Shown here piece after piece: positions 17,563 through 42,860 of a stretch of DNA of 64,000 nt; positions within the stretch are counted from its first letter, which is position 1, and every line of letters starts with the position of its first letter. The position numbers were made by a program, and so were the translations under genes. Origin of the DNA: Emticicia sp. 21SJ11W-3 (lineage in GTDB: Bacteria > Bacteroidota > Bacteroidia > Cytophagales > Spirosomataceae); NCBI RefSeq assembly GCF_024138715.1, contig NZ_CP092074.1, forward strand, positions 3,782,001 through 3,846,000. The letters run 5' to 3'. Below the pieces are notes generated by a model. The model made no database searches. It was not told where the DNA came from and worked only from the letters and a program-made list of their open reading frames with translations.

Positions 17563-17961
17563 ATGAAAGCTTTTCAGAGTACTATAGCCTCGATACTATT
17601 ATTGCTTAACGGCCTTGGCGCAACCTATGGTGGGTGGAAATTAATTACCCGCCCGGACGGAAGCAGTATGCGGATGTCGGTTAGCCTTTTAGAGCAAAGC
17701 CCCTTTCAGGACTTTCTGATACCCGGTTTAGGCCTGCTTGTTTTTAACGGGCTGCCTAGTTTAATTGCTTTTGTGGGTATGTTAGCCAACCCCCGGAAAT
17801 TCGCCTGGGCAGTTTGGGTTCAGGGAATTATTCTTTGCACCTGGATTACCATTCAGGTAATTATGATTGAAATGCTCCACCCTTTGCATCTGGTATGCGT
17901 GGCAGCCGGCCTGGTACTAATTTTAATTGGAAGAAACCAGAGCCGGCCGAAATTTAATTAA
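17563..17961 (+). CDS. Small four-span membrane protein, hypothetical
   Basis: 132 aa from the ATG at 17563; a TTG five codons upstream (17548) also keeps the frame but is less likely. Four hydrophobic segments (about 5-28, 48-70, 78-97, 103-125) separated by short loops. No motif recognised. The 3' end overlaps the convergent GDPD gene end by 4 bp. Located after the CPBP protease on the same strand with a 90-bp gap. Confidence 0.65.
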   Translation: MKAFQSTIASILLLLNGLGATYGGWKLITRPDGSSMRMSVSLLEQSPFQDFLIPGLGLLVFNGLPSLIAFVGMLANPRKFAWAVWVQGIILCTWITIQVIMIEMLHPLHLVCVAAGLVLILIGRNQSRPKFN

Positions 17962-21868: not shown

Positions 21869-22033
21869 GTTAATCATAGGCATTAAGTTCTTTCGGATGG
21901 CAATTATCAGGCTGATTTACAATATTTTCCGCGTCTGATAACAAACCATTCAATATACTACCCTGCTATTTAAAAAGGCTATTAACCGGCATATATTTTT
22001 TGACAAAACGCTTACTTTTCTGAAATAAAAAAA

Positions 22034-22054: not shown

Positions 22055-22079
22055 CCTGTTTTTAACATCACTTCTTGGG

Positions 22080-23432
22080 TTAGTTCTTCTCTGGTGTTTT
22101 CGGAATTTTATTAACCAGTACATTGGGTTTGCCGGGTTGTTTTTTCAATTCAAAAGAATCGTAAAGCTCTCCGGTTGCGGTAAAGGCTTTATATAAAAGC
22201 GAGTTACCCTCAACTGTTAATATCTGAAACAACTGTGTATTGCTGGCTTTGCGGTTCATCCAGGGGTCGTTAGATATATCATACATCTTTGGCCCTGAAA
22301 CCGAAACCACATACACCGTTCCTGATGCCTGATTTTTATTGCCCTGTCCGTTTACCGAATTACTTATTACGCCGCGTCCGTAGGCGTGGTCGTGGCCTTG
22401 CAATACAATATCAACTTTATGTTTGTCAATAATGGGTTTGAAACGCTTGCGCAGCTCAATGTTATCGCGGTTAGGCTTGGTTGAATAGAACGGATAGTGC
22501 AAAGTAATGGCGGTCCATTTGCGAGGATTATTGGTAAGTACCGAATCAAGCCATTTGGCCTGTGCATTAGCAAAGTGTTCCGACTCATCAATTTCTTCGG
22601 CGTTCAGCGAAATCACCTTCAGGTCAGAATAATTTACTTCATAGCAGGTTTCTTCCAGGCCTTTCGGGCCATTAACAGGCAGGTTAAACTGGGGTCTCCA
22701 TTGCGGCGACAGTTTCCCTTTGCCATATTCATGGTTACCGGGTGTCATTACACTAGGTACGGTAGCATGAATATAAGAACCCGCATAGAACCATTCGCCC
22801 CACTCAACATCGTGGTCGTGGCGGTTTATCAGGTCTCCGGCATGCAACATAAACGATACCTCAGGCATGGTTTTGTAGGCTTCTCTGATAACACGAGACC
22901 ATTGCGACTTTACGTCATTCTGGGCATCGCCAAAATAAAGAAACGAGAGCGGCCTGCCGGGTTTATTACCAGGCAAACGCATCTGAAACCACTCTGACCA
23001 GTGCTTGTCATAACCAACCCGGTAAACATACAAGGCACCCGGTTGAAGGTTTTCAATAACGCCCGAGTGGTAATATGCATTTATTTCGGGTTCGTTCGGG
23101 TATTTAACTTTCAGATTTTCTGAAATGGCATTAATGGTGCGGATGTTTTTCTGAAACTGTGTACCATCTGTAGCCTGGGCAAACTGTATTTCGCCTTTGT
23201 TAATGGTTGAATCTGTGCGCCAGTTTACTGCTACCGAGGTTTCAGGTGTGGCTGTCAGATTCAGGATAATTCTGTCTGGCGTGGCAGAAGGAAAAAGGAC
23301 TTTTACGTCCATATTCAACGACCTCGCGTGGTCGTGCGGATGCTTGTGTGTCTGTGAAAAAGCCGTATGGAAAGTATTACTGCAAATAAAAAAACAAAGA
23401 GCCTTTACCACATTTTTTCTGATACTATGCAT
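22080..23432 (-). CDS. Secreted purple-acid-phosphatase-like metallophosphoesterase
   Basis: 450 aa, signal peptide to about residue 27, followed by a His-rich stretch (HKHPHDHAR). Residues ~48-150 form a fibronectin-III/PAP N-terminal domain. The catalytic domain carries the metal-ligand set FGDAQND, HAGDLINRHD, PGNHEYG, TLHYPFY and QGHDHAYGR, which is the complete calcineurin-like dinuclear centre of purple acid phosphatases. These enzymes release phosphate from mono- or diesters. The gene follows susD with a hairpin between, and precedes the ceramidase-like gene. Confidence 0.9.
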   Translation of the reverse strand: MHSIRKNVVKALCFFICSNTFHTAFSQTHKHPHDHARSLNMDVKVLFPSATPDRIILNLTATPETSVAVNWRTDSTINKGEIQFAQATDGTQFQKNIRTINAISENLKVKYPNEPEINAYYHSGVIENLQPGALYVYRVGYDKHWSEWFQMRLPGNKPGRPLSFLYFGDAQNDVKSQWSRVIREAYKTMPEVSFMLHAGDLINRHDHDVEWGEWFYAGSYIHATVPSVMTPGNHEYGKGKLSPQWRPQFNLPVNGPKGLEETCYEVNYSDLKVISLNAEEIDESEHFANAQAKWLDSVLTNNPRKWTAITLHYPFYSTKPNRDNIELRKRFKPIIDKHKVDIVLQGHDHAYGRGVISNSVNGQGNKNQASGTVYVVSVSGPKMYDISNDPWMNRKASNTQLFQILTVEGNSLLYKAFTATGELYDSFELKKQPGKPNVLVNKIPKTPEKN

Positions 23433-23464
23433 ATCTGAGAGGTTTGTGTTAAATAATTAAAAAT

Positions 23465-23492
23465 TAGAGGCGGTTATAAAAAACCACCCCTA
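23465..23492 (-). terminator. Imperfect hairpin downstream of susD
   Basis: TTAG-GG-GGTT and AACC-CC-CTAA arms pair with two mismatches around an A-rich loop. On the minus strand the stem is followed by TTTTTAATT. It lies 28 bp after the susD stop and may give stepwise reduction of the downstream phosphatase transcript. Confidence 0.45.
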
Positions 23493-23520
23493 ATCCACTT
23501 CTTTTCAAAACAATCTATAA

Positions 23521-25161
23521 TTACCAGGGTTTACCTGTTCCCTGAACAACCCATGGTTTTGACCACGCACTGTTTTTACCGTCTGCCTGAGAAAAACTTG
23601 TAGTTTCAAGTCTGTCAAGTGCAGCATTGGCATTGGCTTTATTAATATTCAATTCGTCCTGCATGTAGTAGAATCTTAAAGGCATTGCCTGGCGTTTAGC
23701 TGCCGGGCCTGGTTTAAGAGCCGGGAAGCCTGTTCTTCTGAAATCAAACCATGCTTCTGTAGCAGCTGTCCAGCTGGCAATCCATTTTTGTTCTAATACT
23801 TGTTTCAAAGTACCGTCGTAGGCAACACCTGCATTGGTAAGGTAAGTAGTGGCAGCACCACTTACACCCCAGGTAGCTAATGAAGCTTTTACACCTGCTT
23901 CGTAACGTGACTTGGCATCTCCGGCCGACCAGCCTTTCAATGCGGCCTCAGCCAATATAAAGTTTACTTCCGCTGCAGAAATCAAACGTGCTTTCAACAA
24001 AGAGCCTGTTGCTGCTTTATAGATATCGTTCAGGAACGAAACATGTGGGTTGAACGATGTCTGGCCCGGTGTCGGGTTCAGGTTATAAGCAGACGGCAAT
24101 GCTGAGAAACTGGTAGGTATACCTACATAATCAGGATCGGTGTCAATAAGCGTATTACCAACTTTATCCGGTGACAAATATCTTTTACCACCTTCAATTT
24201 TATCGGTTCCTGCAGGTAAGCTTGCATCAACCACCAACGGAATCTCAACTTTATTAGCCCAGATAGCCAGACGAGGATCTTTCTTTGCCTGCAATGACTC
24301 TACCAATGTAGCAGCCATTTTAATACGGCGGTAGTTACTTCCGCTCACGTCATAAACGGTGTTGGCAGGCCAAGAGGTTGCATCACTGGTACCAGGGAAG
24401 CCCATAGTGGCATCGTCAGAGTTAGATGTAATGATTGGGTACTGGCTTGCATTACCTGCAATTTTCTCGATACCAGCTTTAGCAACATCTGGTTTTTTTG
24501 ATGAGATACGCATATAATAACGTAGAGCAAGCGAGTTGGCAAATTTTCTCCATTTGGTTGGGTCTCCGCCATAATAAACGTCAACGTTATCAACTATGCT
24601 TGAGTACTCAGCTTTGGTTTTCGACAACAAGGTATTGGCTTTTTCCAAATCGGCCAGAATACCTGTGTAAATAGCCTCCTGGCTATCATACGAAGGCAGA
24701 ATATCTTCTGTTTTACCTAACTCACCTTTTAGGGCAGAGGTATAAGGTGCATCACCCCACAAGTCGGTAATTAAGCCAAACATGAACGACTTCATTACCA
24801 GTGCCACACCCTGATGATACTCCAGGTTAAGCGCTACGGCGCGGTCATACACCAACTGGTTGTTACGTAGTATGTCGTAGTAGGCGCTCCAGCTTTGGTT
24901 ACCACCCCAGTCATAATCATTATGACCAGACGACCAGGCATCTTTTTGCGTGTGTTGAACCACACCGGCGATATCCTGATACCCAAGGTTAACATAAATT
25001 TTTGCGGCTTCTGTAAGCACCGTTGGCAATACCAGGTTAGGGTTTACCAAATCAGGCTGCACCCCGTTGGGGTTTTTGTTTACTTCTGTCAAATCTTCGC
25101 ACGAAAAGAAGCCCGTAAAAAGAAAGACTAATGCTATTATTTTTTTGTAACTGGTTTTCAT
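23521..25161 (-). CDS. SusD/RagB-family lipoprotein (SusD-like_2 type)
   Basis: 546 aa. The signal ends in FFSCED, so the mature protein begins with a lipid-modified Cys at about residue 21 and is exposed on the cell surface. The first mature segment (LTEVNKNPNGVQ) and the tetratricopeptide-like helices (for example SFMFGLITDLWGDAPY, TKWRKFANSLALRYYMRIS) identify the SusD-like_2 group. It forms the lid of the SusC transporter and helps capture oligomeric nutrients. Gap to the SusC stop is 21 bp. Surface residues that would bind ligand cannot be read out; neighbours suggest phosphorylated or acylated compounds. Confidence 0.95.
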   Translation of the reverse strand: MKTSYKKIIALVFLFTGFFSCEDLTEVNKNPNGVQPDLVNPNLVLPTVLTEAAKIYVNLGYQDIAGVVQHTQKDAWSSGHNDYDWGGNQSWSAYYDILRNNQLVYDRAVALNLEYHQGVALVMKSFMFGLITDLWGDAPYTSALKGELGKTEDILPSYDSQEAIYTGILADLEKANTLLSKTKAEYSSIVDNVDVYYGGDPTKWRKFANSLALRYYMRISSKKPDVAKAGIEKIAGNASQYPIITSNSDDATMGFPGTSDATSWPANTVYDVSGSNYRRIKMAATLVESLQAKKDPRLAIWANKVEIPLVVDASLPAGTDKIEGGKRYLSPDKVGNTLIDTDPDYVGIPTSFSALPSAYNLNPTPGQTSFNPHVSFLNDIYKAATGSLLKARLISAAEVNFILAEAALKGWSAGDAKSRYEAGVKASLATWGVSGAATTYLTNAGVAYDGTLKQVLEQKWIASWTAATEAWFDFRRTGFPALKPGPAAKRQAMPLRFYYMQDELNINKANANAALDRLETTSFSQADGKNSAWSKPWVVQGTGKPW

Positions 25162-25182
25162 TGATTTCAGAGTTTAAGTTTT

Positions 25183-28100
25183 TTAGAAAGTCAACCCTAA
25201 CTTAAAGCCTACCGGCATAACCCAAGGCATTACGTTATATCTTTCTATACCTTGTTTGAATTGAGTACCTGCCTGTGCACTAGCTTGTGGCTGGTACGCC
25301 ATCTCTGGGTCTACACCGATTTTCGCGGCTGTCCAAAGCATGATGTTACGGCTGTAAACTGATACATTGGCACTTTGCAGACCTAATCTTTTTACAAAGC
25401 CAGATGGAAGCTCATAGCCCAAAGACACTTCTCTTAATTTGATAAACGATGCATCAAACATGGCAGCTCTTGTGAAATCCCAAGGGTAGTTGTCGCCGTA
25501 AGGAATAATTTTGGTACCAGGGCCACCCAGGTTTTCTGTGTAACCTACTACTTTGCCAGACTCGTCATACTGTGCAATTACACCAGGGTTAAACACACCA
25601 TAAGGGTAGGTATTGCCACCGTATGTGAAAGGAAAACCACCATACTCGGCAGTAGGACCACCCACAATGTTGAATTTATTACCTACTACACGCACAAGGT
25701 CGTTGTTAACCAGGTAGTCGCGAAGCGCCTGACCAGATAAACCGTTAGGGTTAATCAGGTTATCAAGGAAACGTTGTGATTTAAGGTCAGATTCAGCATA
25801 ACGATACGTTTGCGAAACAAAGTCGCCACCTTGTCTCCAGTCGAACGTCATGTTCAGGCTAAAGTTTTTGTAGCTCAATGAAGTTTGAAGACCAAGGATG
25901 AAATCAGGGTTGAAGTTACCGATTTTGTTACGGCTGTTGCTGGCGCTTACTGCCTGCCATGAACCGTCAGAATCAAGAATCGGATATCCGTAGTATGGAG
26001 ACGATTTGTCTTTTACTGTAACAAGTTCTGAGTCATAAATATCACCAACGGTTTCACCTACGTATGTCCAGGCACCACCTTTAGCATCTGTCCACAAGGT
26101 ATAGAAGTCAATACCCGGCGACAATTCTTTAATAACTGTTCTGTTTCTGTAGAAGTTAGCTGTCAGATCCAATCTCCAGCCGTTTCTTTCAAGTGGCGTG
26201 CCACCCACAGTAATTTCGGTACCTCTACTAACTAACAAACCAGCGTTGATGTTTTTAGACGTATAACCAGACGACGGAGGCAATTTGGTTGGTATAATCT
26301 GGTTTCTGTTCTCAACCATGTAGTAAGTACCCGAAACACGCAATTTGTTTTTAAACATGGTCAGGTCAACACCCAGGTCATAAGAAGTAGCAATCTCTGG
26401 TTTCAGGTCTGGTAACAGGATAGTACCTGATTTAGACAAACGGGTGATACCATTCCATGCTTCGTTACTACCCAAAGTGTTTAGCAAGGCATAAGGGTTG
26501 GTGTCATTACCTACCTGTGCTACACCGGCTCTCAGTTTCAACATATTCAGGTTTGGCGACGAGTTGGCAAACAATTCGTTGGCCAATAAGCTCACCGAAG
26601 CAGCAGGGTAGAAATAAGAACGGTTTGCAGAAGGCAAGGTACTTGACCAGTCATTTCTACCTGTCAGGTCAACAAATACAAGGTCTTTGAAACCAACAGT
26701 TGCAGTACCGTAAAGGCTATACACCATCTTTTTTGAATAATAGCTGGTGTACAATAAGTTTGCAGGAGTAATATTCTGAAGCGTAAACAAGCCCGGAATA
26801 ATAAGGCCGGTACCGTTGCGGCTTTGGTTGACTACGTCTGAGTACTTGGTGTTACGAACGTTACCACCGGCAGAGAATGTTAACGAAAGGTCGTTTACAT
26901 TTTTGTTATACGTAGCCAGGAAGTCAGCATTACTTTCAAAACGTCTAAGGTTGATGATACCATAAGCACCGCGAGGCTCAGCTGTGTAGCTGTTAGCAAT
27001 TTTGGTTTCACGGTTTTCGCCATAGCTGTCTAATGAATATCTGGCCATCAAACTCAACTCTGGAGTAATCTGGTAATCAGCTTTCATGTTTCCGAACAAA
27101 CGATTTCTTTCAAAAGCGTTTTTCACTTCATGAGCTAGGAACCACGGGTTATTGAAGTTTTTGGCCGACTGCGATTTTTGTTGCAGACCTTCCTGACCCG
27201 GCACCCAGTAGTCTTTCAGCTCGTTGATATCAATATGAGGAGATAACGCATACGCCCATTGCAATGGGTTGGCGCCTCTTTCACCGGCAGGGCGGTTGTT
27301 AGAGTTGTTACGGCTCAAATCGATGTTAGTGCTTAATCTTAATTTATTGCTTAACTTCATTGAAGTAGCAACCGCCAATGAGTTTTTAAATAAGTCTGAA
27401 CCAGGAATGATACCACGGTTGGTCATATTTGAATACGCCACACGGTAGTTAATAAAATCATTACTGTTAGAGATTGAAATACCATTGGTAGTTGTAATAC
27501 CTGTTTGAACGAAATCTCTTACGTTGTTAGGGTGAGAAACCAGTTCGGTCGGAATAGACTTGCCATTGGCATCTTTAGGGCTGTTCCATTGAATAGCCTT
27601 GTAACCTTTGTCAAGCTCTGGGCCTACACCGCCTGCGCCACCTTCCTCAATCTGAAGGATACCACCCGGATACGGGTTTTTGTCTGGTGTGAAAGGAAGG
27701 ATACCCGTAGCAAATTTGTGGTGGAAATCAAGGAAACGGTACGGTTGGTCAAAAACGGTATTGGTAGTAAGGTTAACTGTCAGTTTCTTAGCTTTTGAAC
27801 CGTTCTTGGTTGTAATAAGCACCACACCATTACCCGCTCTTGAACCATACAGCGCAGCTGCACTTGGCCCTTTCAGGATAGACACGCTCTCTACGTTGTC
27901 CGGGTTTAAGTCAGATATTGCGTTACCGTAGTCAACACGGTTGTCGCCACCAATCTGGCTTACGTTGTTAAGGGTGTTAATGATAGGTACACCGTCAATT
28001 ACAAATAGTGGCTGGTTGTCGTTGCTCAAAGACTTGGCACCTCTGATAACCATACTCACAGACGAACCCGTACCACCAGTGGCATTAATAGCCACACCGG

Positions 28101-28572
28101 CCACTTTACCGGCCATGGCGTTCAAAACGTTTTCGTTTGAGATACGGCCCAGGTCTTTGCCATCTACCTTACCTATTGAGTAACCAAGCGATTTCTCTTC
28201 GCGTTTGATACCAAGGGCGGTAACTACCACCTCTTTCAGGCTTTCAGAGCTAAGTTCAAGCGCTACATCTACTGTACTTCTGTTGCCCACAGGCACATCA
28301 ATGGCCTGATAACCCACGAACGAGAAAACCAGAACTGCATTGCTACCGCTTACTTCAATAGAGTAAGTACCATTGGCATTAGAGCTTGTTCCGCGCTGGG
28401 TTCCTTTTAATGCAATGTTAACACCGGGCATGGCCGTACCGTCTTCTTTGGCGGTTACCTTACCTGTTACGACCCGGGTTTGTGCCCAAACCGCCGGAGC
28501 ACATACCCCCAACAGGAATCCATAAAGAACCAAACCCCTAAGCATGCTTCGGAGAGTAAAGTTTAACTTCAT
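25183..28572 (-). CDS. SusC/RagA-family TonB-linked outer-membrane transporter
   Basis: 1129 aa. Signal peptide to about residue 30 (AVWAQ). A CarboxypepD-regulatory-like beta-sandwich (about 35-115) comes first. A TonB box region (LKEVVVTALG) and the plug domain follow (VIDGVPI, VESVSILKGPSAAALYGSRAGNGVVLITTK). The 22-strand barrel fills the rest, and the protein ends in a final aromatic strand (GFKLGLTF). There is no N-terminal STN signalling domain. SusC imports ligands captured by SusD using TonB energy. It is the first gene of the operon and lies 134 bp downstream of an ECF sigma gene on the same strand. Substrate class is inferred from the downstream hydrolases only. Confidence 0.95.
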   Translation of the reverse strand: MKLNFTLRSMLRGLVLYGFLLGVCAPAVWAQTRVVTGKVTAKEDGTAMPGVNIALKGTQRGTSSNANGTYSIEVSGSNAVLVFSFVGYQAIDVPVGNRSTVDVALELSSESLKEVVVTALGIKREEKSLGYSIGKVDGKDLGRISNENVLNAMAGKVAGVAINATGGTGSSVSMVIRGAKSLSNDNQPLFVIDGVPIINTLNNVSQIGGDNRVDYGNAISDLNPDNVESVSILKGPSAAALYGSRAGNGVVLITTKNGSKAKKLTVNLTTNTVFDQPYRFLDFHHKFATGILPFTPDKNPYPGGILQIEEGGAGGVGPELDKGYKAIQWNSPKDANGKSIPTELVSHPNNVRDFVQTGITTTNGISISNSNDFINYRVAYSNMTNRGIIPGSDLFKNSLAVATSMKLSNKLRLSTNIDLSRNNSNNRPAGERGANPLQWAYALSPHIDINELKDYWVPGQEGLQQKSQSAKNFNNPWFLAHEVKNAFERNRLFGNMKADYQITPELSLMARYSLDSYGENRETKIANSYTAEPRGAYGIINLRRFESNADFLATYNKNVNDLSLTFSAGGNVRNTKYSDVVNQSRNGTGLIIPGLFTLQNITPANLLYTSYYSKKMVYSLYGTATVGFKDLVFVDLTGRNDWSSTLPSANRSYFYPAASVSLLANELFANSSPNLNMLKLRAGVAQVGNDTNPYALLNTLGSNEAWNGITRLSKSGTILLPDLKPEIATSYDLGVDLTMFKNKLRVSGTYYMVENRNQIIPTKLPPSSGYTSKNINAGLLVSRGTEITVGGTPLERNGWRLDLTANFYRNRTVIKELSPGIDFYTLWTDAKGGAWTYVGETVGDIYDSELVTVKDKSSPYYGYPILDSDGSWQAVSASNSRNKIGNFNPDFILGLQTSLSYKNFSLNMTFDWRQGGDFVSQTYRYAESDLKSQRFLDNLINPNGLSGQALRDYLVNNDLVRVVGNKFNIVGGPTAEYGGFPFTYGGNTYPYGVFNPGVIAQYDESGKVVGYTENLGGPGTKIIPYGDNYPWDFTRAAMFDASFIKLREVSLGYELPSGFVKRLGLQSANVSVYSRNIMLWTAAKIGVDPEMAYQPQASAQAGTQFKQGIERYNVMPWVMPVGFKLGLTF

Positions 28573-31839: not shown

Positions 31840-31997
31840 TTCTTTACAGTTCTGATTATTAATACGCTATAAGGTATGTTTTGTACCAACTCAAAAAAGC
31901 CCTGATTATTGTTTTTTTTCTTCAGGCAATAGTCTTGAAACACAGTATTGAAGTACTTACACTGTACATCATAACCAATCTGAGCCCTGCTGAAAGT

Positions 31998-34400
31998 ATG
32001 AACAAGTGTCTATATAAATATTCAACCCCAAACCGCCAATTCCGATTTAACCTTTTTGCATTAGGCCTGATTTTGATTTGGGTTACCCAATCATGTGCGC
32101 GCAAAGAAGAACCCGCCGACATGGTTGACCCGTTCATTGGCACCGATTATTTCGGGCATACTTTCCCCGGTGCAGTTGTGCCTTACGGAATGGTACAGCT
32201 AAGCCCCGACCACGATACCCAGGGCTGGACCTACAGCAGCGGATTCAGTTATTCTGACAGCTCTATTGTTGGTTTCAGCCATACGCATTTCAGCGGTGTG
32301 GGCATGAACTCCGGCGGAGATATCCTGCTGATGCCCACCGTTAAAGACAAAATACAAACCAGCCCCGGAACCAAAGAAAACCCCGATGCAGGCTACAGGT
32401 CAAGATATAATAAGGATGACGAAAAAGCCGTGCCGGGCTATTATAGCGTGGTGCTGAAAGATGAGAACATCAAAGCAGAACTAACTACCACCAAGCATGT
32501 AGGCATGCACCGTTATACTTTCCCGAAAGCCAGGCGCTCCAACATATTGCTGGACCTGGGCCATGAAATAGGCAACGATGATAAAAGTGGTTTATCTGCC
32601 CTAAAAATAGTAAGCGACAGCACCATTGAAGGTTATAAAGATGCCAACGGTACAATGGTCTATTTTGTGGCTCAATTCAGCCGGCCTTTTGATTATTACG
32701 GCACCTGGGATGCTGACTACAACACGCCTGAGTCGTCAGAGGGTTTCTGGCCATACAAAAATGAAGAAAAAGGCCGCAATGTTGGGGTTTTTGTGAGCTA
32801 TGCTACCAAAGAAGCTGAGCAGATACTGGTAAAAGTGGGTATTTCATTTGTGAGCCTTGAAGGCGCGCGCAATAACCTGCAAACCGAATTGCCTCACTGG
32901 GATTTCAACCAGGTGAAAGAAAATGCGTACCAGGCCTGGAACAACGAACTGAAAAAGGTATCGGTAACAACTACTGACGCCGCCAAAAAACAGGTATTTT
33001 ATACAGCAGTTTACCGTAGCTTGCTGGCGCAATATACCGGGCAGGATGCCGACGGACAATATATGGGAATGGACAAAAAGGTGCATACTGCCAAAGGTTA
33101 CGACTTCTACCCGAATTTCTCGTGCTGGGACACTTACCGCAGCCAGCATCCTTTACTTACCATTATTGCGCCTGACCACGTAAACGACCTCGTGAAATCA
33201 ATAGCAGCCAAAACAACTGAATATGGCTGGTTACCGGCCCAGCATTTCAGAAACGTTTTCGGGCAAGGCATGGTAGGCGACCACCTGGTACCGGTTATTG
33301 TTGATGCTTATAAAAAAGGATACCGCGACTGGGATATTGAAGGGCTTTACAATGCCATGCGTAAAAAGGCGCTTGAAGCCCCACCGGCTCCATTGCCTGC
33401 CTCTAATGGCCGCTCAGGTCTGGCACAATACATGAGTTTGGGCTATGCTCCATGCGACGTAGTAACAGAATCAGTACCGAATACGCTTGAACTGGCCTAC
33501 AACGATTGGTGTATTGCCCAACTGGCTGATGCCCTGGGTAAAAAAGAAGATGCAGCCTTGTTTTACAAACGTGCCCAGAACTACCGCAATGTATATGATA
33601 CCACCACGCTATTCATGCGCCCGCGTCTGAAAAACGGCTCTTGGCTGCCAGAAAAAGGCACTAATGAACAAGAAATAGTAACCGTAGGAGAACACAGTTA
33701 TTATAAATATTTTGACCCACTACTGGTAGGCCGCCGCCCCAACCGCCATTATACTGAATCTAATGCCTGGCAGTACCTCTGGTCGGTACAACATGATGTA
33801 AAAGGGCTGATTAACCTGATGGGCGGCAATGAAGCCTTTAATAAACGATTGGATACCTTTTTTGAAATGGATGCATCCATCAGCGAACCAAAATATGTGG
33901 GTGTAGTGGGTACCATCGGCCAGTATGTGCATGGCAATCAGCCGTCGCACCATGTGGCTTACTTATATAATTACGCCTCTGCACCCTGGAAAACACAGGC
34001 CAGAACGCGTGAAATCATGCAGAAATTTTATCGCACCGGCCCGGGTGGTTTAAGTGGTAATGAAGACATGGGCTCGTTGTCGTCCTGGTATGTACTCAGC
34101 AGTATGGGTATTTATCCGGTTACACCGGGCAGCAGCCAGTATGCCATTGGTAGCCCCTTGTTTGATGCCGTTGAAATCAATGTAAAAGATAACAAGAAGT
34201 TTACCATTAAGGCCAATAACAATAGCACTAACAATAAATACATACAATCGGCCACACTAAATGGCAAACCTTTCAACCGTTGCTTTATTGACCAGTCTGA
34301 AATTACAGCAGGCGGAGAACTGGTTTTTGAAATGGGCGCAACACCTAACAAAAGCTGGGGAGTTGGGAAAGACGCCGTGCCATATTCGTTGACGAAATAA
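31998..34400 (+). CDS. GH92 family alpha-mannosidase, lipoprotein
   Basis: 800 aa from the ATG at 31998. A longer open frame reaches 31881, but the chosen start gives a basic start, a hydrophobic stretch and a lipobox-like TQSC. GH92 motifs: VDPFIGTDYFGHTFPGA and PYGMVQLSPD at the N-terminal beta-sandwich; GFSHTHFSGVG; the barrel with YTESNAWQYLWSVQHD (general-acid Glu region); and GNEDMGSLSSWYVLSSMG, matching the GNDDxGxxSxWY signature with the catalytic-base acids. GH92 enzymes are calcium-dependent exo-alpha-mannosidases cutting alpha-1,2/1,3/1,6 mannose on N-glycans or yeast mannan. First gene of a same-strand run of exported proteins. Confidence 0.93.
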   Translation: MNKCLYKYSTPNRQFRFNLFALGLILIWVTQSCARKEEPADMVDPFIGTDYFGHTFPGAVVPYGMVQLSPDHDTQGWTYSSGFSYSDSSIVGFSHTHFSGVGMNSGGDILLMPTVKDKIQTSPGTKENPDAGYRSRYNKDDEKAVPGYYSVVLKDENIKAELTTTKHVGMHRYTFPKARRSNILLDLGHEIGNDDKSGLSALKIVSDSTIEGYKDANGTMVYFVAQFSRPFDYYGTWDADYNTPESSEGFWPYKNEEKGRNVGVFVSYATKEAEQILVKVGISFVSLEGARNNLQTELPHWDFNQVKENAYQAWNNELKKVSVTTTDAAKKQVFYTAVYRSLLAQYTGQDADGQYMGMDKKVHTAKGYDFYPNFSCWDTYRSQHPLLTIIAPDHVNDLVKSIAAKTTEYGWLPAQHFRNVFGQGMVGDHLVPVIVDAYKKGYRDWDIEGLYNAMRKKALEAPPAPLPASNGRSGLAQYMSLGYAPCDVVTESVPNTLELAYNDWCIAQLADALGKKEDAALFYKRAQNYRNVYDTTTLFMRPRLKNGSWLPEKGTNEQEIVTVGEHSYYKYFDPLLVGRRPNRHYTESNAWQYLWSVQHDVKGLINLMGGNEAFNKRLDTFFEMDASISEPKYVGVVGTIGQYVHGNQPSHHVAYLYNYASAPWKTQARTREIMQKFYRTGPGGLSGNEDMGSLSSWYVLSSMGIYPVTPGSSQYAIGSPLFDAVEINVKDNKKFTIKANNNSTNNKYIQSATLNGKPFNRCFIDQSEITAGGELVFEMGATPNKSWGVGKDAVPYSLTK

Positions 34401-34478: not shown

Positions 34479-36779
34479 ATGACAACCAGAGGATTGTTCA
34501 GCACATACAAAAAACTATGGTTTTTCTCTTTTTTGGGATTAACCATCACCTTTTTTATGTATGCCTGCAAATCTACTGAACAGCACGAATCTGCCGCTAC
34601 TTATAAAGACGCTCCTTTCTGGCAAGAATACCACGAGGCATATCCTATCAGTGAAAATACCGAAGAAAATAACGTAAGAAGCATAGTTATCGACAAAGCA
34701 AATAATGTTTGGGTAGCCACAGCCTCAGGCATTTTTATGAAAAAAGCCAATGAATCGAACTGGGCATCCATTCAAAACGCAACTGACAAAGGCCCTGCTT
34801 TTGCGGTGGAAGTAGATGACGAAGGCACAGTATGGATAGGCACCTGGAATGGCATATATCGCTTTAAAAATAACCAACTCGAAAAACTGCAAGGAGTAAA
34901 CGCTCCCGTTTCTGCTATTTGTATAGCCAAAGAAGGCGTTTATGCCTTAGGGCCACATGGCATCTGGCTATTTGACGGACAGGCATTTAAAAAACCACAA
35001 TCCGATAAAGAAGGCTATCAGCTTCCGCGTTCTGTAAGAGACGTTATTTCAGACAATAAAGGCGGTTTGTGGATTGCCAGCGATGTGGGCTTATACCATA
35101 CTAACAACCACGAAACAAGGGTCTTCCGCAATAAAGAAGATGTCATCAGTGGCTACATCAAAGGTATAGCCATTGATAGCAATCAGCACCTATGGGCAGG
35201 AGGTTTAGGCGGAGTGAGTATTATTCAGGCTGATAAAAAAATCAGAGAAATAACTCCGAAACAAGGCTTACCTACCGTATTTGTTACCTGTGTAGATACA
35301 GCGCCTAATGGCACTTTGTGGGTGGGTACAGAACAAGGCCTGGTTCGTTATCAGCCACATACCTCAACGCCCGACAGTTCATATTCAATGCTTTTCAGTC
35401 GCAGATGGTTGCTGGATGACCATGTGAATGACATTGCTTTTGATGCCCAAGGCAACGCCTGGGTAGCTACTGCAAAAGGGGTAAGCGCCATTAAACGCCG
35501 ACAAATGACATTGGCGCAGAAAAACGATTACTTTATGGATGTGCTTATGAAACGCCACATCCGTGTCCCCTGGATAGCCGGGCAGGCGCATCTGCGCATA
35601 CCCGGAGACACCACCTCATGGCAACCGGAAGATGATGACAATGATGGCGAATACACAGGCAATTATTTAGCCATGGAATCTTTCAGGTATGCCGTTACCA
35701 AAAGTCTGGAAGCAAAAGAAAACGCCCGCAAGGCCTTTGGTTTCCTGAAACTGCTACAGGAAGTAACAGATACCGAAGGTTTTTTTGCACGTACCGTTGT
35801 TCCGGCCAGCTGGAGTACATTGCATGACGGCAACCGTACTTTTACACCGCGCCAACTGGCAGACGAACTGGTAAAAGAACCTCGCTTTAAACCCGTTCAA
35901 GTGCGCTGGCGCAAATCAAAAGATGGGAAATGGCTCTGGAAAGGCGACACCAGCAGCGACGAAATGTGCGGGCACATGTTTGGTTACTTTTTCTACTATG
36001 AATTAGTGGCCGACGAGGTCGAAAAAGCCATCGTCCGGCAGCACGTATCACGCATTGTAGACTATCTTATCAAGCATAATTTTAACTTTATTGACATAGA
36101 TGGCAAACCAACCCGCTGGTCGGTCTGGTCGCCGGATCAACTAAACCGTGACCCTGAATGGGCACCCGACAGAAACCAGAATTCGATGGAGATGCTGGCT
36201 TTTCTTAAATTTGCGCATCATATTACCAACAATGAAAAGTATCAGCAACAATACCTGAGGCTGATTAATGAAGAGCATTACCTCGACAACATGGCGCAGG
36301 TACCCAACCAGAACAGAGCATGGTTTATCTATTTTGACGCCATCCTTCAGGCATATCTTTACCCCATACTTTTAAAATGCGAAACCGACCCTGAGCGGCT
36401 GGCTTTTTATGAAAAACATATTGACCATTGGTTTGAGACCCGTAAGGTAGACCATAATCCGCTTATTAACTTTATTTACTGTTATTCAAGAGGCAAAAAA
36501 CAAGAAGTAACCAATTCGGTTGATTTCCTGAAAGATACTCCGCTTGATTTGGTAGACTGGCACATTGACCACACCAAACGGGAAGACATACAACTGGTAA
36601 GAAACATAGTGCTTGATGAACTGCAGGTTTCTGAATTACCCCCTGCCAGTATCAGAAAAACCGTCCGGTGGGACAAAAACCCTTTTGATGCCCGTGGCGG
36701 AGACCCTCAAGTGGAAAGAGAACCCGTTTTCTGGCTACTACCCTACTGGATGGGCCGGTACACTAACATGATTCAATAA
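34479..36779 (+). CDS. Lipoprotein with seven-bladed Reg_prop propeller and C-terminal helical domain, family unrecognised
   Basis: 766 aa. The hydrophobic leader ends in FMYAC, an acceptable lipobox. Residues ~65-340 hold seven repeats of the ligand-binding-sensor type (for example NNVWVATASGIF, GTVWIGTWNGIYRF, GLWIASDVGLYH, GTLWVGTEQGLVRY), normally found in hybrid histidine kinases, but no kinase follows. Residues ~350-766 are helical and resemble an (alpha/alpha) toroid, with acidic/aromatic patches (TSWQPEDDDNDGEY, TSSDEMCGHMFGYF, DGKPTRWSVWSPDQ) and a tail ending LLPYWMGRY. A paralogue (39251-41479) shares the helical part and that tail. The architecture suggests a glycan-acting enzyme or lyase, with the propeller as binding platform. 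No catalytic activity can be assigned. Confidence 0.75.
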   Translation: MTTRGLFSTYKKLWFFSFLGLTITFFMYACKSTEQHESAATYKDAPFWQEYHEAYPISENTEENNVRSIVIDKANNVWVATASGIFMKKANESNWASIQNATDKGPAFAVEVDDEGTVWIGTWNGIYRFKNNQLEKLQGVNAPVSAICIAKEGVYALGPHGIWLFDGQAFKKPQSDKEGYQLPRSVRDVISDNKGGLWIASDVGLYHTNNHETRVFRNKEDVISGYIKGIAIDSNQHLWAGGLGGVSIIQADKKIREITPKQGLPTVFVTCVDTAPNGTLWVGTEQGLVRYQPHTSTPDSSYSMLFSRRWLLDDHVNDIAFDAQGNAWVATAKGVSAIKRRQMTLAQKNDYFMDVLMKRHIRVPWIAGQAHLRIPGDTTSWQPEDDDNDGEYTGNYLAMESFRYAVTKSLEAKENARKAFGFLKLLQEVTDTEGFFARTVVPASWSTLHDGNRTFTPRQLADELVKEPRFKPVQVRWRKSKDGKWLWKGDTSSDEMCGHMFGYFFYYELVADEVEKAIVRQHVSRIVDYLIKHNFNFIDIDGKPTRWSVWSPDQLNRDPEWAPDRNQNSMEMLAFLKFAHHITNNEKYQQQYLRLINEEHYLDNMAQVPNQNRAWFIYFDAILQAYLYPILLKCETDPERLAFYEKHIDHWFETRKVDHNPLINFIYCYSRGKKQEVTNSVDFLKDTPLDLVDWHIDHTKREDIQLVRNIVLDELQVSELPPASIRKTVRWDKNPFDARGGDPQVEREPVFWLLPYWMGRYTNMIQ

Positions 36780-36795
36780 ATAAATTACCATATAA

Positions 36796-37857
36796 ATGAT
36801 AAAGCTCAAATCAACCCTCCTGACAGGCCTGTTTTTAGCCTCTGCAGCTTTTGCACAGGCACAGGAAACATACGCCGAAAAACTGGGTTTCCCGAAAGGT
36901 AAAAAAGTTGTGATTTTCCATGTGGACGACTGCGGTATGTCGTACTCATCTAACCAGGGCGCTATTAAATCAATTGAACAGGGCGTGGCAACTTCATGCA
37001 GCATTATGATGCCCTGCCCCTGGGCGCCCAGCTTCATTAAAAACTATATTCAGAAGAAAAACCCGAACCTCGATGCAGGCTTGCACCTAACCCTTACCTC
37101 TGAATGGAAAGACTACCGCTGGGCTCCGGTTGCCGGTTTCGAACACGCACCCGGCCTTGTAGACGAAGAAGCCTGCATGTGGCATACAGTTGAGCAGGTG
37201 GTAAAAAATGCTTCGGCCGATGAGGTAGAAAAAGAAATCAGAGCGCAGCTGGCGCGTGCCCACAAAATAGGCTTAAAGCCAACACACCTAGACTCGCACA
37301 TGGGTACTCTCTTTGCGCATCAGCCGTTTCTGGAAAGATACATTAAAGTAGGTATTGAAAACGGCATTCCGGTTATGTTCCCGGGTGGCAATAACAAACT
37401 ACTCATTGAATGCCTCAACGCCCCGGTCATAAAAAACCTGAAAGCCAAAGGGCAATGGAAAGAAGGCATGCAGTTACCAGTACCGGCGCTTGTAAAACAA
37501 ACCAAAGCCGTTGGTGAAATGATATGGAAAGCCGGTTTACCTGTACTTGACGACCTGCACACCATTAGTGGGGACTGGAAACCGGAAGGCAGCAACATAA
37601 CTGCCGAAGCATGGGGCAAATATAAAGCTCAGAAATTTATAGAAACCCTGAAAAACATGCAGCCCGGCGTAGCCATGCTGATTGTACATAGCAGCGATAT
37701 AACAGACGCATTTCAGTACATCAGCGGTTCAGGCGGCTCACGATATGCCGATATGCTATCAATGATGAACCCGGAACTAAAAGCCTACATTGAAAAAGAA
37801 GGCATTATTCTGACTACCTTCCGCGAGTTGGCTGAGAGACGTAAGAAGGTAAAATAA
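36796..37857 (+). CDS. Exported ChbG/HpnK (YdjC) family carbohydrate deacetylase
   Basis: 353 aa with a signal peptide (about 1-22, ending AFAQAQ). The YdjC fold's metal site is visible: HVDDCGMSYSSNQG (Asp pair), LDAGLHLTLTSEW (His), and PTHLDSHMG (two His). ChbG removes an acetyl group from chitobiose and chitotriose in the cytoplasm of E. coli, while HpnK acts in hopanoid synthesis. This one is exported, unlike ChbG, so it should deacetylate N-acetyl sugars on glycans outside the cytoplasm. It lies between the two propeller-helical genes (16 bp after the first), strongly suggesting a shared substrate. Confidence 0.87.
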   Translation: MIKLKSTLLTGLFLASAAFAQAQETYAEKLGFPKGKKVVIFHVDDCGMSYSSNQGAIKSIEQGVATSCSIMMPCPWAPSFIKNYIQKKNPNLDAGLHLTLTSEWKDYRWAPVAGFEHAPGLVDEEACMWHTVEQVVKNASADEVEKEIRAQLARAHKIGLKPTHLDSHMGTLFAHQPFLERYIKVGIENGIPVMFPGGNNKLLIECLNAPVIKNLKAKGQWKEGMQLPVPALVKQTKAVGEMIWKAGLPVLDDLHTISGDWKPEGSNITAEAWGKYKAQKFIETLKNMQPGVAMLIVHSSDITDAFQYISGSGGSRYADMLSMMNPELKAYIEKEGIILTTFRELAERRKKVK

Positions 37858-37873
37858 CACAGCAAACACGTAG

Positions 37874-37892
37874 AGCCGCATTGCATGCGGCT
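37874..37892. repeat. Palindrome AGCCGCA-N5-TGCGGCT
   Basis: Perfect 7-bp stem (37874-37880 with 37886-37892) and loop TTGCA just downstream of the ChbG-like gene. Related in form to the palindrome at 37976-37995. Confidence 0.55.
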
Positions 37893-37975
37893 TCAGGGGC
37901 AGATGCGAACAATAAAATCATTATTCAGCCATTTGAATTGCAAATCACATTAGTTGATACCCCAATTCTACGATA

Positions 37976-37995
37976 AGACGCATTGCAATGCGTCT
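37976..37995. repeat. Perfect 20-bp palindrome
   Basis: AGACGCATTG-CAATGCGTCT is self-complementary over all 20 bases and lies 29 bp before the sialidase-fold gene start. The outer arms AGACGCA/TGCGTCT match the hairpin at 8387-8409. It may be a dispersed repeat or a regulator site in the leader. Confidence 0.6.
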
Positions 37996-38024
37996 CTACC
38001 AATAAAAAAACTGATAACGCCTTA

Positions 38025-39206
38025 ATGAAAAAAACACTAACATTACTTTTATTATTATCTATCAGCAGCTGGCAGGCTATCGCACAGCATCCAGCCATAT
38101 TGCATGCGGGTATTATATTTCCTGTACAACCACAGCACGTGCATGGCAGCAGCATTGTAAGCCTGCCTAACGGCGACTTTCTGGCAGTTTGGTTTCAGGG
38201 AAGTGGAGAACGCACAGCCGACGACGTAAAAATTATGGGAGCCAGATTACGCAAAGGTGAAAAAACCTGGAGCGAACCTTTTCTGATGGCCGATACCCCC
38301 AACATACCCGACTGCAACCCGGTTGTTTTTCTTAATCAGGAAAACAAACTTTTTCTGGTATGGATAGCCGTGCAGGCCAATCAGTGGGAACAATCCATTC
38401 TGAGAGTCAGAACCTCTACCGATTACAGCAAACCCGGTGCTCCGGTCTGGAACTGGCAGGATAACATTCTGCTGAAACCCGGCGACGACTTTGCCAAAGA
38501 AGTGGCCAGCCGTTTCAAAAACATGCCTGAAACCCACGCAGGCTGGGCCGGTTATGCCCCAAAATATGACGACATGATCATTAAAGCCGCTACTGATGCC
38601 ACCAAACGCAGCATAGGCTGGATGACCCGCATTAAACCATTGTTAATGCCCGGCGGACGCATTGTACTGCCTTTGTATTCAGACGGTTACAATATGTCAA
38701 TGATGGCAATCTCTAACGACAACGGCACAACCTGGCACCCGGGCTTACCACTGGTTGGCCGTGGCCCTATACAACCTGCCGTTGTTCAAAAGAAAAACGG
38801 GAATCTGGTTGCCTATATGCGCGACAGCGGCGACGGCCCCACACGTGTGCACATCAGCGAGTCGACCGATAAAGGCGAAAGCTGGTCGGCCTCTGTTAAA
38901 ACAGATATACCCAACACAGCCAGCGTAGAACTACTGGTTCTGAACGACGGCCGCTGGGCATTTTTAGGAAACGATATTGATGATGGCCGATACAAGCTAA
39001 GCCTGTATCTGTCAGACGATGAAGGCAAAACCTGGAAATGGAAAATAAAAATGGAAGACCACGACCCAAAGAATGACGGTGGATACTCTTACCCTTCTAT
39101 GATACAAACCAAAGACGGGCTACTGCACCTCACTTATTCGTATCATCCGGAAAGCAAACAAAAATCAATTAAATATGCCGTGGTAGACCCACAGAAAATC
39201 AAGTAA
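38025..39206 (+). CDS. Secreted sialidase-fold (BNR/Asp-box) protein
   Basis: 393 aa from the ATG at 38025 (MKKTLTLLLLL...AIAQ signal); an ATG-like start 14 codons upstream gives no signal peptide. The mature protein is a six-bladed beta-propeller of the predicted-neuraminidase group, with three Asp boxes: SNDNGTTWHP, STDKGESWSA and SDDEGKTWKW. The opening HGSSIVSLPNGDFLAVWFQG and the closing GGYSYPSMIQTKDGLLHLTYSY fit the group as well. Catalytic Arg triad assignments cannot be made with confidence. Relatives are annotated as sialidases, but similar folds also cleave other acidic or rhamnose-containing glycans. A NanA-like aldolase and SSS symporter lie 8 kb downstream. Confidence 0.8.
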   Translation: MKKTLTLLLLLSISSWQAIAQHPAILHAGIIFPVQPQHVHGSSIVSLPNGDFLAVWFQGSGERTADDVKIMGARLRKGEKTWSEPFLMADTPNIPDCNPVVFLNQENKLFLVWIAVQANQWEQSILRVRTSTDYSKPGAPVWNWQDNILLKPGDDFAKEVASRFKNMPETHAGWAGYAPKYDDMIIKAATDATKRSIGWMTRIKPLLMPGGRIVLPLYSDGYNMSMMAISNDNGTTWHPGLPLVGRGPIQPAVVQKKNGNLVAYMRDSGDGPTRVHISESTDKGESWSASVKTDIPNTASVELLVLNDGRWAFLGNDIDDGRYKLSLYLSDDEGKTWKWKIKMEDHDPKNDGGYSYPSMIQTKDGLLHLTYSYHPESKQKSIKYAVVDPQKIK

Positions 39207-39250
39207 ATTTCCGTTTCACACAAAATACTAATCAATTACCTTACATTCTT

Positions 39251-41479
39251 ATGAGATTATCATCTTACGTTTTCATTGGTTTGGCTTTGGCGGGGTTTGC
39301 ATCCTTTGCACAAAAAACCACAGCCAAAACACAGCCCGTGTACGCCGACAAGCCTTTTATGCAAGACTATGCCATTAAGTTTTATGCAAAATCTGCCAAT
39401 ACAAAACTGATGGATGTAGCCGCCGACAGAAACGGAGCTATCAAAATTTTTTCGTCTGAAGGCCTCCTTATCCCGCACGATGGTCAATTCCTGTATCCTG
39501 GCTCATTAGAAGCTGATAAAACTTACCGCACTATCGGCCACAAAAACCTGAAAGGTTTGGGCAGTTATGAGAATCAGTTTGTGTTGCTGGACGACAAATC
39601 TGTACTAAGCAATGCCTGGGCAGGTAAATTGTTCAACAAACATGAGCTAAGCGGTGCCAGATTGTTTGTAGGTGGCAAAGACTTTGCATTTCTGGTTTCA
39701 GACGGCAAGTCGCTGCAACTTGTAAAAGATTCTAAAAGTATCTGGAAAGGCAACCTGGCCGGAGACGACGTAGTTGCACTACGCTATCAGGCAGGTACCG
39801 ATACCTACTGGATTCTGGGTAAAAAATCTTTATCAACCCTATCGGGCACCAAGCTAACCAAAGTATTTGATGGCGCAGGCTTTACGGCTTTCGATACCGA
39901 CGGCAAAAAAGTAATCATTGGTACTACCGACGGCATTATTACCTTAGATGCTGCCACCAAAAAACAAACAGGCGCTAAAAATCAGAAACTGCCGGTTACC
40001 GAAATTACAGCAGTGAAGGCTATCGGCGACAAATTCTGGTTTGGTACAGTTAATGGTGCGTTTGCTTCTCGTGCCGATGGCAAATTTGATTACTACAACG
40101 GCGAACGCTGGTTGCCGGGCAACGAAGTTACCAACATTGCTGAAGGCCCAGAAAACTCGGCTCTTATTCTTACTACTGCCGGTTTAGGCCAGATTTGTTT
40201 CAAGAAAATGACCTTGCAAGATAAAGCCGTTTATTTCGACAAACAAGTGCGCAGCCGCCATATCCGCAATGGTTTCAATGCCTCTCTCAGCAATATGCAA
40301 AAAGGCAACTTAAGTACCGGTTATCTGTCTGACTCAGACAACGACGGCTTGTGGACATCCATGTATCTGGGCGGCGAAGTTTTCAGATATGCGGTAACCA
40401 AAGACCCTGAAGCACTGCAAAACTGCGTGGAGTCGTTAGATGCCATGGAGCGTTTATTTACCGTTAACGGCATTCCGGGTTTCCCGTCACGTTCTTTTGA
40501 AAGAAGAGGGTATATCGAACAATTATCAGACCCTGAGCGCTGGCAGCATTCGGCTGACCCTGAGTGGGACTGGAAAGCAACTACCAGTAGTGATGAGGCC
40601 ATCGGTCATATATTTGCTTATGGTGCAATGGCAGAGCTGATTCAAGAGCCGACTCTTAAAAAACGTGCCATTACCCTGATAGATACCATGATGAGCCATA
40701 TCATCAAAAATAATATGTATATGATTGACTACAACGGTAAACCAACACAATGGGGCCGCTGGAATCCTGAATATGTGAATGCTTTCCCGATAAATGTGGG
40801 CGACAGAAAACTGAATTCATCTAACATCGTAGCTATGTTGCAAACGGCGTATCACTTCACTAAAAAGGAGAAATATAAACAAAAGGCTTTTGAGCTGATG
40901 AATAAATACGGGTACTACGAAAACCTGATGCGCCCCATGAGCATCATCGGTAAAGCGCCCGCAGATGCCGATGAACATAGCAAGCACATGTCAGACGGCT
41001 GGAATCACTCAGACGATGAAATGTATTTTGTTGGCTACTGGGGTTTATACCGCTATGCATTAAATGACACCCTGAAAGCCGCCTACAAAAAAGCAATTCT
41101 TGACCACTGGCAGGCAGAACGTCCTGAAAAAGAAGGTGCATGGAATATTTTTACGGCGTTAACAGGCGTTAAGAATTTTGACCTGAACGAAGCAGCCTGG
41201 TATTTAAGAGAGTATCCGCTTGATATGATAGACTGGGTAATTATGAACAGCCACCGTAAGGATATTGAGAAAGTAGCGCCTAATTTCCGTAACCAGACCA
41301 TTAAAGAAGTGCTACCACCTGACGAAGGCCCGATTCAACGCCACAATGGTAATACTTTCAACCTTGACCGCCGTGGTGGCAACGGTACCTCAGAGCATAG
41401 TGCCGGAGACATCTGGTTACTACCTTACTGGATGGGCAGATACCTTGGCGTAATAAGCGCACCGGCTACGACGAAGTAA
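39251..41479 (+). CDS. Secreted paralogue of the propeller-helical protein, family unrecognised
   Basis: 742 aa with a signal peptide (cleavage after about residue 20, AGFASFAQ). The N-terminal ~340 residues are propeller-like, but the Reg_prop repeats are less regular (for example RNGAIKIFSSEGLL, DTYWILGKKSLS, DKFWFGTVNGAFA). Residues ~350-730 align by eye with the helical domain of the 34479 gene: TTSSDEAIGHIFAYGAMAEL versus TSSDEMCGHMFGYFFYYEL, NGKPTQWGRWNPEYVN versus DGKPTRWSVWSPDQLN, and both end LLPYWMGRY. The segment around the conserved S-D-E/G-H and W-N/S-P motifs could be an active site. It follows the sialidase-fold gene by 44 bp. Duplication with different anchor (soluble versus lipoprotein) suggests the two act on the same material. 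Confidence 0.75.
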   Translation: MRLSSYVFIGLALAGFASFAQKTTAKTQPVYADKPFMQDYAIKFYAKSANTKLMDVAADRNGAIKIFSSEGLLIPHDGQFLYPGSLEADKTYRTIGHKNLKGLGSYENQFVLLDDKSVLSNAWAGKLFNKHELSGARLFVGGKDFAFLVSDGKSLQLVKDSKSIWKGNLAGDDVVALRYQAGTDTYWILGKKSLSTLSGTKLTKVFDGAGFTAFDTDGKKVIIGTTDGIITLDAATKKQTGAKNQKLPVTEITAVKAIGDKFWFGTVNGAFASRADGKFDYYNGERWLPGNEVTNIAEGPENSALILTTAGLGQICFKKMTLQDKAVYFDKQVRSRHIRNGFNASLSNMQKGNLSTGYLSDSDNDGLWTSMYLGGEVFRYAVTKDPEALQNCVESLDAMERLFTVNGIPGFPSRSFERRGYIEQLSDPERWQHSADPEWDWKATTSSDEAIGHIFAYGAMAELIQEPTLKKRAITLIDTMMSHIIKNNMYMIDYNGKPTQWGRWNPEYVNAFPINVGDRKLNSSNIVAMLQTAYHFTKKEKYKQKAFELMNKYGYYENLMRPMSIIGKAPADADEHSKHMSDGWNHSDDEMYFVGYWGLYRYALNDTLKAAYKKAILDHWQAERPEKEGAWNIFTALTGVKNFDLNEAAWYLREYPLDMIDWVIMNSHRKDIEKVAPNFRNQTIKEVLPPDEGPIQRHNGNTFNLDRRGGNGTSEHSAGDIWLLPYWMGRYLGVISAPATTK

Positions 41480-41507: not shown

Positions 41508-42860
41508 ATGAAATATTTACTTTTGACCTTTATTGTATCATTATTATCAGCTTGCACAACTATGGAGTATCTGGAAGAGAAACAAATTACGAATGACCTG
41601 ACGTATCATCACGATTTAGACAACAACGATAATTTCTCACCGGATAACGAATGGCTGGTGTACGATACCCGAACCGATGAAGGCGGCATTGCGGCTTCCG
41701 GCCGCATTGAAAAAGTAAATATTTCAACGGGTGAAAAAAAGATTGTTTACCAATTGCCCAACAATCAGGCATGGGGCCCGGGTGCAGGGGCGGTAAGCTA
41801 CTCGCCTGTAGAAAACGCCGTGGTTTTTATTCATGGCCTGATGAGCGTAACTGAAGCCAATCCTTATCAGCAATGGCGGCGCACCGGAGTAATTATCAAT
41901 ACAGACCAACCCGGAAAACCCATTTTTATGGACGCGCGCGACATTACAGCCCCTTACACCAAAGGGGCCCTGCGTGGCGGTACCCATCGCCACGAATGGA
42001 GCGGCGACGGCCAGTGGATTGGCTACACTTACAACGATGCCGTACTGAAAGCGCTGGAAGATTCAACCGGCCAAAAGCATAACCTGCGTACCATTGGTGT
42101 TTCTAAACGAATTGGTGCGGTAAAGGTTGAAAAAGATAGTAAAGGTGATAATGTATCTGGCGAATGGTTCAGTGCGCTGGTAGTTAAAGTAACACCGGAA
42201 CCCAAACCCGGCACTGATGAAATAAGCCATGCGGCAGGTGATAGCTGGGTAGGCACAAACGGCTATAAAAAACCCGACGGCAGCCCACAAATAGCACGTG
42301 CTTTTATTGGCTCGGTGATTGATAAAAACGGCAAAAAAGTAGATGAAGTTTTTATTGTGGACATACCGGACGATATTACGAAAGAAGGGAACTCAGGCCA
42401 GCTGGCAGGTACAGAAACAGCCATGCCTGCACCGCCTGAAGGCACCGTGCAGAGAAGACTGACATTTACCGCCAATACTGCACAACCCGGTTGCGTAGGT
42501 ATTGTGCGCAGCGCACCAGATGGCCAGTCGCTGGCTTTTCTTGCTAAAGACACCAGGGGTATTCTACAAATATTTACCATTGACCCCTACGGTAAAAACC
42601 TGACACAGGTTACGCATCATGACAGCCCCGTTGAGGGCTATGTGCGTTGGCATCCGTCTGGCAAGAGTCTTTTTTACGTCTGGAACGGCAGCATTGTTAA
42701 ATGTAACACCGGCAGCGAATCATTTGAAAAACGATTCCAACTGCTTACCAAACCATCGGTACCCTCGCCAACCAATCTGGTTATTTCGCACGACGGCAAA
42801 ACCATTGCCTTTAACAGATTAATCGGTAACGCAAAACAGATATTTACCGGAAAGCTCTAA
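41508..42860 (+). CDS. DUF3748/YidR-like TolB-fold lipoprotein
   Basis: 450 aa. Lipobox LLSACTT at about residue 16. The conserved core around RTGVIINTDQPGKPIFMDARDITAP and GGTHRHEWSGDGQWIGYTYNDA marks the DUF3748 family, of which E. coli YidR is a member. WD40/PD40-type repeats (PDGQSLAFLAK, DGKTIAFNR) indicate a TolB-like beta-propeller. Function unknown in general. It is the last gene of the run, 28 bp after the second propeller-helical gene, so it probably belongs to the same system, perhaps as a surface binding protein. Its 3' end overlaps the convergent AsmA-like gene by 17 bp. Confidence 0.82.
   Translation: MKYLLLTFIVSLLSACTTMEYLEEKQITNDLTYHHDLDNNDNFSPDNEWLVYDTRTDEGGIAASGRIEKVNISTGEKKIVYQLPNNQAWGPGAGAVSYSPVENAVVFIHGLMSVTEANPYQQWRRTGVIINTDQPGKPIFMDARDITAPYTKGALRGGTHRHEWSGDGQWIGYTYNDAVLKALEDSTGQKHNLRTIGVSKRIGAVKVEKDSKGDNVSGEWFSALVVKVTPEPKPGTDEISHAAGDSWVGTNGYKKPDGSPQIARAFIGSVIDKNGKKVDEVFIVDIPDDITKEGNSGQLAGTETAMPAPPEGTVQRRLTFTANTAQPGCVGIVRSAPDGQSLAFLAKDTRGILQIFTIDPYGKNLTQVTHHDSPVEGYVRWHPSGKSLFYVWNGSIVKCNTGSESFEKRFQLLTKPSVPSPTNLVISHDGKTIAFNRLIGNAKQIFTGKL

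Follow-up and report, generated by a model that had tools for sequence, protein, structure and literature searches.

The 64,000-nucleotide stretch of Emticicia sp. 21SJ11W-3 DNA analysed here (hereafter the window) contains two plus-strand genes, A and B, each encoding a protein in which a propeller is followed by a helical domain. Gene A (34479..36779) encodes a putative lipoprotein of 766 amino acids with a lipobox-like site (MYAC), and gene B (39251..41479) a protein of 742 amino acids with a signal peptide; both proteins appear to be exported, the signals having been read by eye. The Reg_prop-type propeller of A is encoded at 34665..35495 (around residues 63-339, limits approximate), where Pfam recognised six Reg_prop stretches (E 3.6e-20) and phmmer searches of the PDB returned propellers of the BT4663 type; its helical (alpha/alpha)6 part spans 35502..36776. 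Reg_prop was recognised in A only. The diverged propeller of B (39356..40213, residues 36-321) was located in an AlphaFold2 model and by propeller matches in Foldseek and VIA, and is followed by an (alpha/alpha)6 part (40205..41476) with 31% identity to the helical half of A. Alignment of the two proteins gave 30% identity across 553 columns. Both open reading frames (ORFs) were found at the positions given in the original prediction, and the motifs it had named, TSSDE (A491/B445), GKPT (A542/B496) and LLPYWMGRY (A753/B723), were confirmed in both proteins.

Sequence comparison places the A/B propeller with the sensor propellers of hybrid two-component systems (HTCS), such as BT4663 (PDB 4a2l), BT4673 and BT3049, to which it is related with a profile E of 1.2e-40 (A alone, E 2.7e-23) and which it also resembles in fold. 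A and B are not themselves HTCS. Unlike those sensors they have one propeller only, followed by the toroid, and Pfam and NCBIfam detected no kinase or response regulator domain in either protein, as had been proposed from the first reading of the DNA.

The complete B protein and, separately, the helical half were modelled with AlphaFold2, and fold searches were carried out with Foldseek and VIA; VIA re-examines Foldseek's candidates only, and families missing from its list may still be related. With the full-length model, all the Foldseek and VIA rows listed were propellers or propeller-containing proteins; hence, the helical half was modelled alone. Twelve longer helices were present in the model of B, and these may be grouped into six hairpins if the first helix is paired with the last. 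The domain is confidently predicted to form an (alpha/alpha)6 toroid of six helical hairpins, a fold of the six-hairpin glycosidase type, and the 50 best rows of each structure search with the helical half were mostly carbohydrate-active enzymes (CAZymes). The toroid that had been suggested for this domain is therefore consistent with both the model and its matches.

No named glycoside hydrolase or polysaccharide lyase family was matched significantly by sequence in the Pfam, NCBIfam and PDB searches, in agreement with the novelty originally suggested. No Pfam or NCBIfam family had its best stretch in the helical half of A, and B gave no match in either library at E<=10. At E<=10, neither the helical half of A nor B matched any of the named six-hairpin Pfam families (GH88/105, GH9, GH116, GH95, GH127 and others), a result that leaves room for distant membership. 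When 30 family members were searched at E<=1, Reg_prop was recognised in 19, and the sole glycosidase name among 25 of the 29 families, those listed, was GH127, in one member (E 0.037). Searching the PDB with profiles built from the whole family or from the helical half alone gave no significant sequence other than propeller proteins. No paper on propeller-toroid fusions was found by title or start of abstract among the open-licence papers listed in the literature searches. The toroid belongs to a family that the searched libraries do not describe, though its fold is common to many CAZymes.

We know of no GH76 enzyme with a propeller. The GH76 alpha-mannanases (e.g. BT2949, 4v1s) resemble the helical half in fold only (TM ~0.3 in Foldseek), with no Pfam match on A, on B or among the 25 of 29 families listed for the 30 members. 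GH76 enzymes have an adjacent catalytic Asp-Asp pair, to whose mutation the titles of 6shm and 6y8f refer. The A/B family has no invariant pair of neighbouring Asp residues: in D363-N-D365 the two are separated, and the residue after the invariant D588 is Asp in B and Ala in A. The L-rhamnose-alpha-1,4-D-glucuronate lyase BACCELL_00875 (PL27, 5no8) is described as a two-domain protein with an (alpha/alpha)6 barrel and an N-terminal beta-sandwich, the latter standing where A and B have the propeller (PMC8377490).

Six acids, D363, D365, D448, D493, D588 and D658 (B numbering), were invariant in 77 helical halves. The near-invariant acids were all located in loops leading into the inner helices (10/10, p 0.002; p 0.005 when compared with the 54 D/E of the helical half), and near-invariant polar or aromatic residues were weakly enriched in the face loops (32/47, p 0.03). 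The active site would sit at the meeting point of the loops that run into the inner helices, with the six acids as its lining. Thus, of the conserved acidic pocket foreseen in the original prediction, the acids in these loops were found, and the pocket itself is putative. Conservation was lower in the propeller than in the toroid within A (51.1 vs 72.8%), within B (45.7 vs 68.4%) and between A and B (18.4 vs 29.6%). Despite this, R286 and W287, near the end of the propeller, were both invariant in a 30-row alignment, and in a 96-row alignment W287 remained invariant and R286 was present in >=90%, which may mean that the propeller contacts the toroid along this edge.

Relatives of the helical half of B were detected in 7 of the 395 genomes sampled across the phylum, and a 30-row profile found the same 7; for the helical half of A, relatives were present in 39 of 98 close genomes (the source genome being included in both counts). 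In the source genome itself only A and B were found, plus one further match at E 0.38. A scan of genome contigs confirmed at least 562 relatives among at least 592 pattern matches, and 80 loci from it were retained for context counts; 26 of them, counted over the whole locus, contain an ORF whose closest match is A. Two scans of viral contigs revealed no relative (no pattern match in one; 15 pattern stretches, none of them confirmed, in the other). In a tree of 88 rows, A and B belonged to separate clades of 18 and 59 rows, respectively, both supported at 100/100, with long branches leaving the deeper joins unsure. By these sequences, the A/B pair is ancient and consists of paralogues spread through the Bacteroidota; the two clades rule out the local duplication that the word "duplicated" in the original prediction had implied. 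Seventy-nine of the 80 loci carry Bacteroidota names and one is titled Thalassobius (Pseudomonadota). The B-type gene of that metagenome-assembled genome (MAG) contig (L091) nests among Bacteroidota rows of the tree, and the contig is therefore probably misbinned. Two genomes (G190 and G449) encode 407-aa relatives without a propeller, which are distant (31-32% identity over part of the helical half, E 1.1e-15 and 2.1e-17; tree branch 5.5). In the propeller-free 407-aa relatives at L140:1533-2753 and L141:1860-3080 the SSD motif reads DLSSDK, and near each lies a gene judged by eye to look GH127-like.

Four further plus-strand genes flank A and B. A GH92 family glycoside hydrolase (31881..34400; PF07971, E 6.1e-177), whose ORF opens at TTG with the true start probably further in, ends 78 bp upstream of A. 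A YdjC-type carbohydrate deacetylase (36796..37857; PF04794, E 6.3e-53; PDB 8jqe, 'YdjC family protein', E 9.3e-42) begins 16 bp after A, and a sialidase-like BNR_2 protein (37983..39206; PF13088, E 2.5e-51), also opening at TTG and with a downstream ATG as likely start, ends 44 bp before B. A DUF3748/PD40 propeller-repeat protein (41508..42860) follows B after 28 bp. The six genes GH92-A-YdjC-BNR-B-DUF3748, with gaps of 78, 16, 125, 44 and 28 bp between the listed ORFs, are likely an operon. The BNR_2 protein matched PDB entry 'Hz136' at E 3.8e-6 and entries named sialidase from E 1.1e-5; these matches are partial and weak, and for this reason a sialic-acid specificity was not accepted.

On the minus strand lie a SusC-type TonB-dependent receptor (25183..28572; Pfam CarbopepD_reg_2 and Plug), a SusD-type lipoprotein (23521..25161; SusD-like_2, E 3.8e-77), a phosphoesterase of the purple acid phosphatase type (22080..23432), a Ceramidase_alk-like protein (20579..21883) and, at the end of the run, a glycerophosphodiester phosphodiesterase (GDPD; 17958..18815; PF03009, E 7e-35). 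The ceramidase-like assignment is marginal (32.4 bits, Pfam cut-off 32.1) and the protein had no PDB sequence match at E<=1; orthologues occur in the runs of L062, L059 and L065. The whole run (17958-28572), which also includes a PhoPQ-related gene between the ceramidase-like and GDPD genes, has a lipid/phosphodiester character that is unusual in a locus of the polysaccharide type. A Cytophagaceae MAG (L062) has in one string SusC, SusD and ceramidase-like genes (73, 80 and 79% identical to those of the window), YdjC, BNR, B and a 432-aa gene whose L059 orthologue is a GntP permease, and this string ties the minus-strand run to B and its partners. With SusC and SusD in the window and the same pair beside YdjC-BNR-B in L062, the locus qualifies as a polysaccharide utilization locus of the Sus type.

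Within 7 kb of the A/B gene in the 80 loci, BNR was present in 31 (40 of 41 genes on the same strand), YdjC in 25 (25/25 on the same strand), SusC in 24, SusD in 23, DUF3748 in 19 and GH92 in 8. UxuA was found at this distance in 6 loci, an HpaI-type aldolase in 8, one GntP cluster in 5, a murQ-like etherase in 11 and an HldE-like kinase fusion in 10, the names of these five clusters resting on one or two representatives each. GntP adjoins an altronate/galactarate dehydratase in L056, and in L058 the HpaI-type aldolase and a GDPD directly follow A-B-B. In a Cyclobacterium locus (L119), regulator, MFS and ROK-kinase genes 78, 73 and 61% identical to those at 6104-9647 of the window diverge from alkaline phosphatase-BNR-YdjC-BNR-B and a murQ-like gene, named by its L104 relative. 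A family scan of the neighbours of 44 representatives named no common partner, each of the 25 families listed of 65 having matched one member. Taken as hints, the neighbours suggest acidic sugars, amino sugars and phosphodiesters; lineages differ in their gene sets and the counts have no background rate behind them. The acidic-glycan substrate first proposed finds such hints near some relatives (UxuA, altronate/galactarate dehydratase, GntP, HpaI-type aldolase) and nothing beyond them. A murQ-like etherase of ~269 aa just downstream of B was observed in L100, L104, L119, L120, L123, L128 and others, several of them with the HpaI-type aldolase. A role specific to N-acetylmuramic acid is weak, since most of the murQ-like loci bear Cyclobacteriaceae titles and the only above-cut-off murQ match of the source genome lies elsewhere.

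From these data, A and B are likely to represent a new family of six-hairpin enzymes, exported and acting as glycan hydrolases or lyases in a Sus-type locus, with catalysis and substrate being inferred. The toroids of the lipoprotein A and the exported B would break glycan bonds, while the propeller would hold the glycan chain or help to bind it or shape the substrate site, to which R286-W287 may reach. SusC and SusD would import the products, and the sialidase-like BNR protein, the YdjC deacetylase and GH92 would trim them or cut glycans alongside A and B. The number of invariant acids slightly favours a hydrolase over a lyase. Of the undescribed carbohydrate-active family originally proposed, the CAZyme-like predicted fold, the lack of a match to the family models searched and the SusC/SusD-type locus are in place; the enzymatic role, the substrate and glycan binding by the propeller are putative. 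Several results weigh against this reading. Foldseek gave no match to the helical half at E<=0.001 (505 at E<=10), and TM scores were 0.21-0.57 over the best 50 of these 505 rows, so that no reaction can be transferred; moreover, sugar epimerases headed the list. The 70 near-invariant positions as a whole were not enriched in the face loops (40 vs 38.0 expected, p 0.34), and the loop limits had been set after the model was viewed. The neighbours point to several kinds of sugar, in counts without background control, and no activity is recorded for A, B or the relatives found.

It is unlikely that A and B are non-catalytic glycan-binding proteins of an outer-membrane Sus complex, with the toroid as an enzyme-like scaffold used for binding only. 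Such a role would suit the lipoprotein-like appearance of A (read by eye), the propellers resembling that of A, which belong to sensors, and the lack of any function on record for the relatives; however, the invariance of six acids across 77 rows, together with conservation of the helical half at a level well above that of the propeller, exceeds what binding usually requires, and helical relatives without a propeller exist. That the toroid is a sugar epimerase or isomerase instead of a glycan-cleaving enzyme is very unlikely. Enzymes of the AGE/cellobiose 2-epimerase kind have an (alpha/alpha)6 barrel and two catalytic histidines. They occupied the first Foldseek rows (7d5g, 3vw5; E 1.4e-3 to 5.0e-3), but identity was 10-12%, A and B appear to be exported, and the catalytic histidine pair is not evident; in the helical-half alignment H337 is present in 77/77 rows and H453 in 72/77. 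We give hardly any credence to a role in envelope assembly or signalling, for example like that of PorZ of the type IX secretion system, in place of glycan use. A weakly matches NCBIfam T9SS_PorZ and 20 of the 80 loci have a sigma-70-family gene within 7 kb, but the match scores 58.6 bits, far under the cut-off of 260, with its best stretch (residues 28-138) in the propeller half; furthermore, a family with so patchy a distribution, 7 of 395 sampled genomes, is unlike core machinery, and its genes are accompanied by SusC/SusD, YdjC and BNR and, in 8 loci, by GH92.

A more specific form of the hydrolase or lyase reading, which we regard as quite unlikely, is that A and B define a new CAZyme family whose active site is composite, the propeller Arg-Trp completing the substrate site of the toroid, and that the locus serves glycans on phosphodiester lipids, e.g. 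glucuronate- and glucosamine-containing plant inositol-phosphoceramides. This is based on the phosphatase, ceramidase-like protein and glycerophosphodiesterase encoded in the SusC/SusD run, and on the uronate-catabolism, aldolase and phosphodiesterase genes adjoining some relatives. Hundreds of relatives occur in environmental Bacteroidota, and none of the domain models searched extends over the helical half. If A and B are enzymes, they would constitute a new catalytic family in which residues suitable for mutation are already at hand. The architecture also suggests that a type of propeller known chiefly from glycan sensors may form part of an enzyme; if true, the same fold could be compared in reading glycans and in helping to cut them.

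Two other proteins of the window also recur in the A/B loci. One of 782 aa (9826-12174) had no Pfam or NCBIfam match at E<=10 and a best PDB E of 0.55, with relatives in 12 of the 80 loci; the other, of 435 aa (15000-16307), has only a marginal DUF3464 match (25.6 bits, cut-off 25) and relatives in 11.
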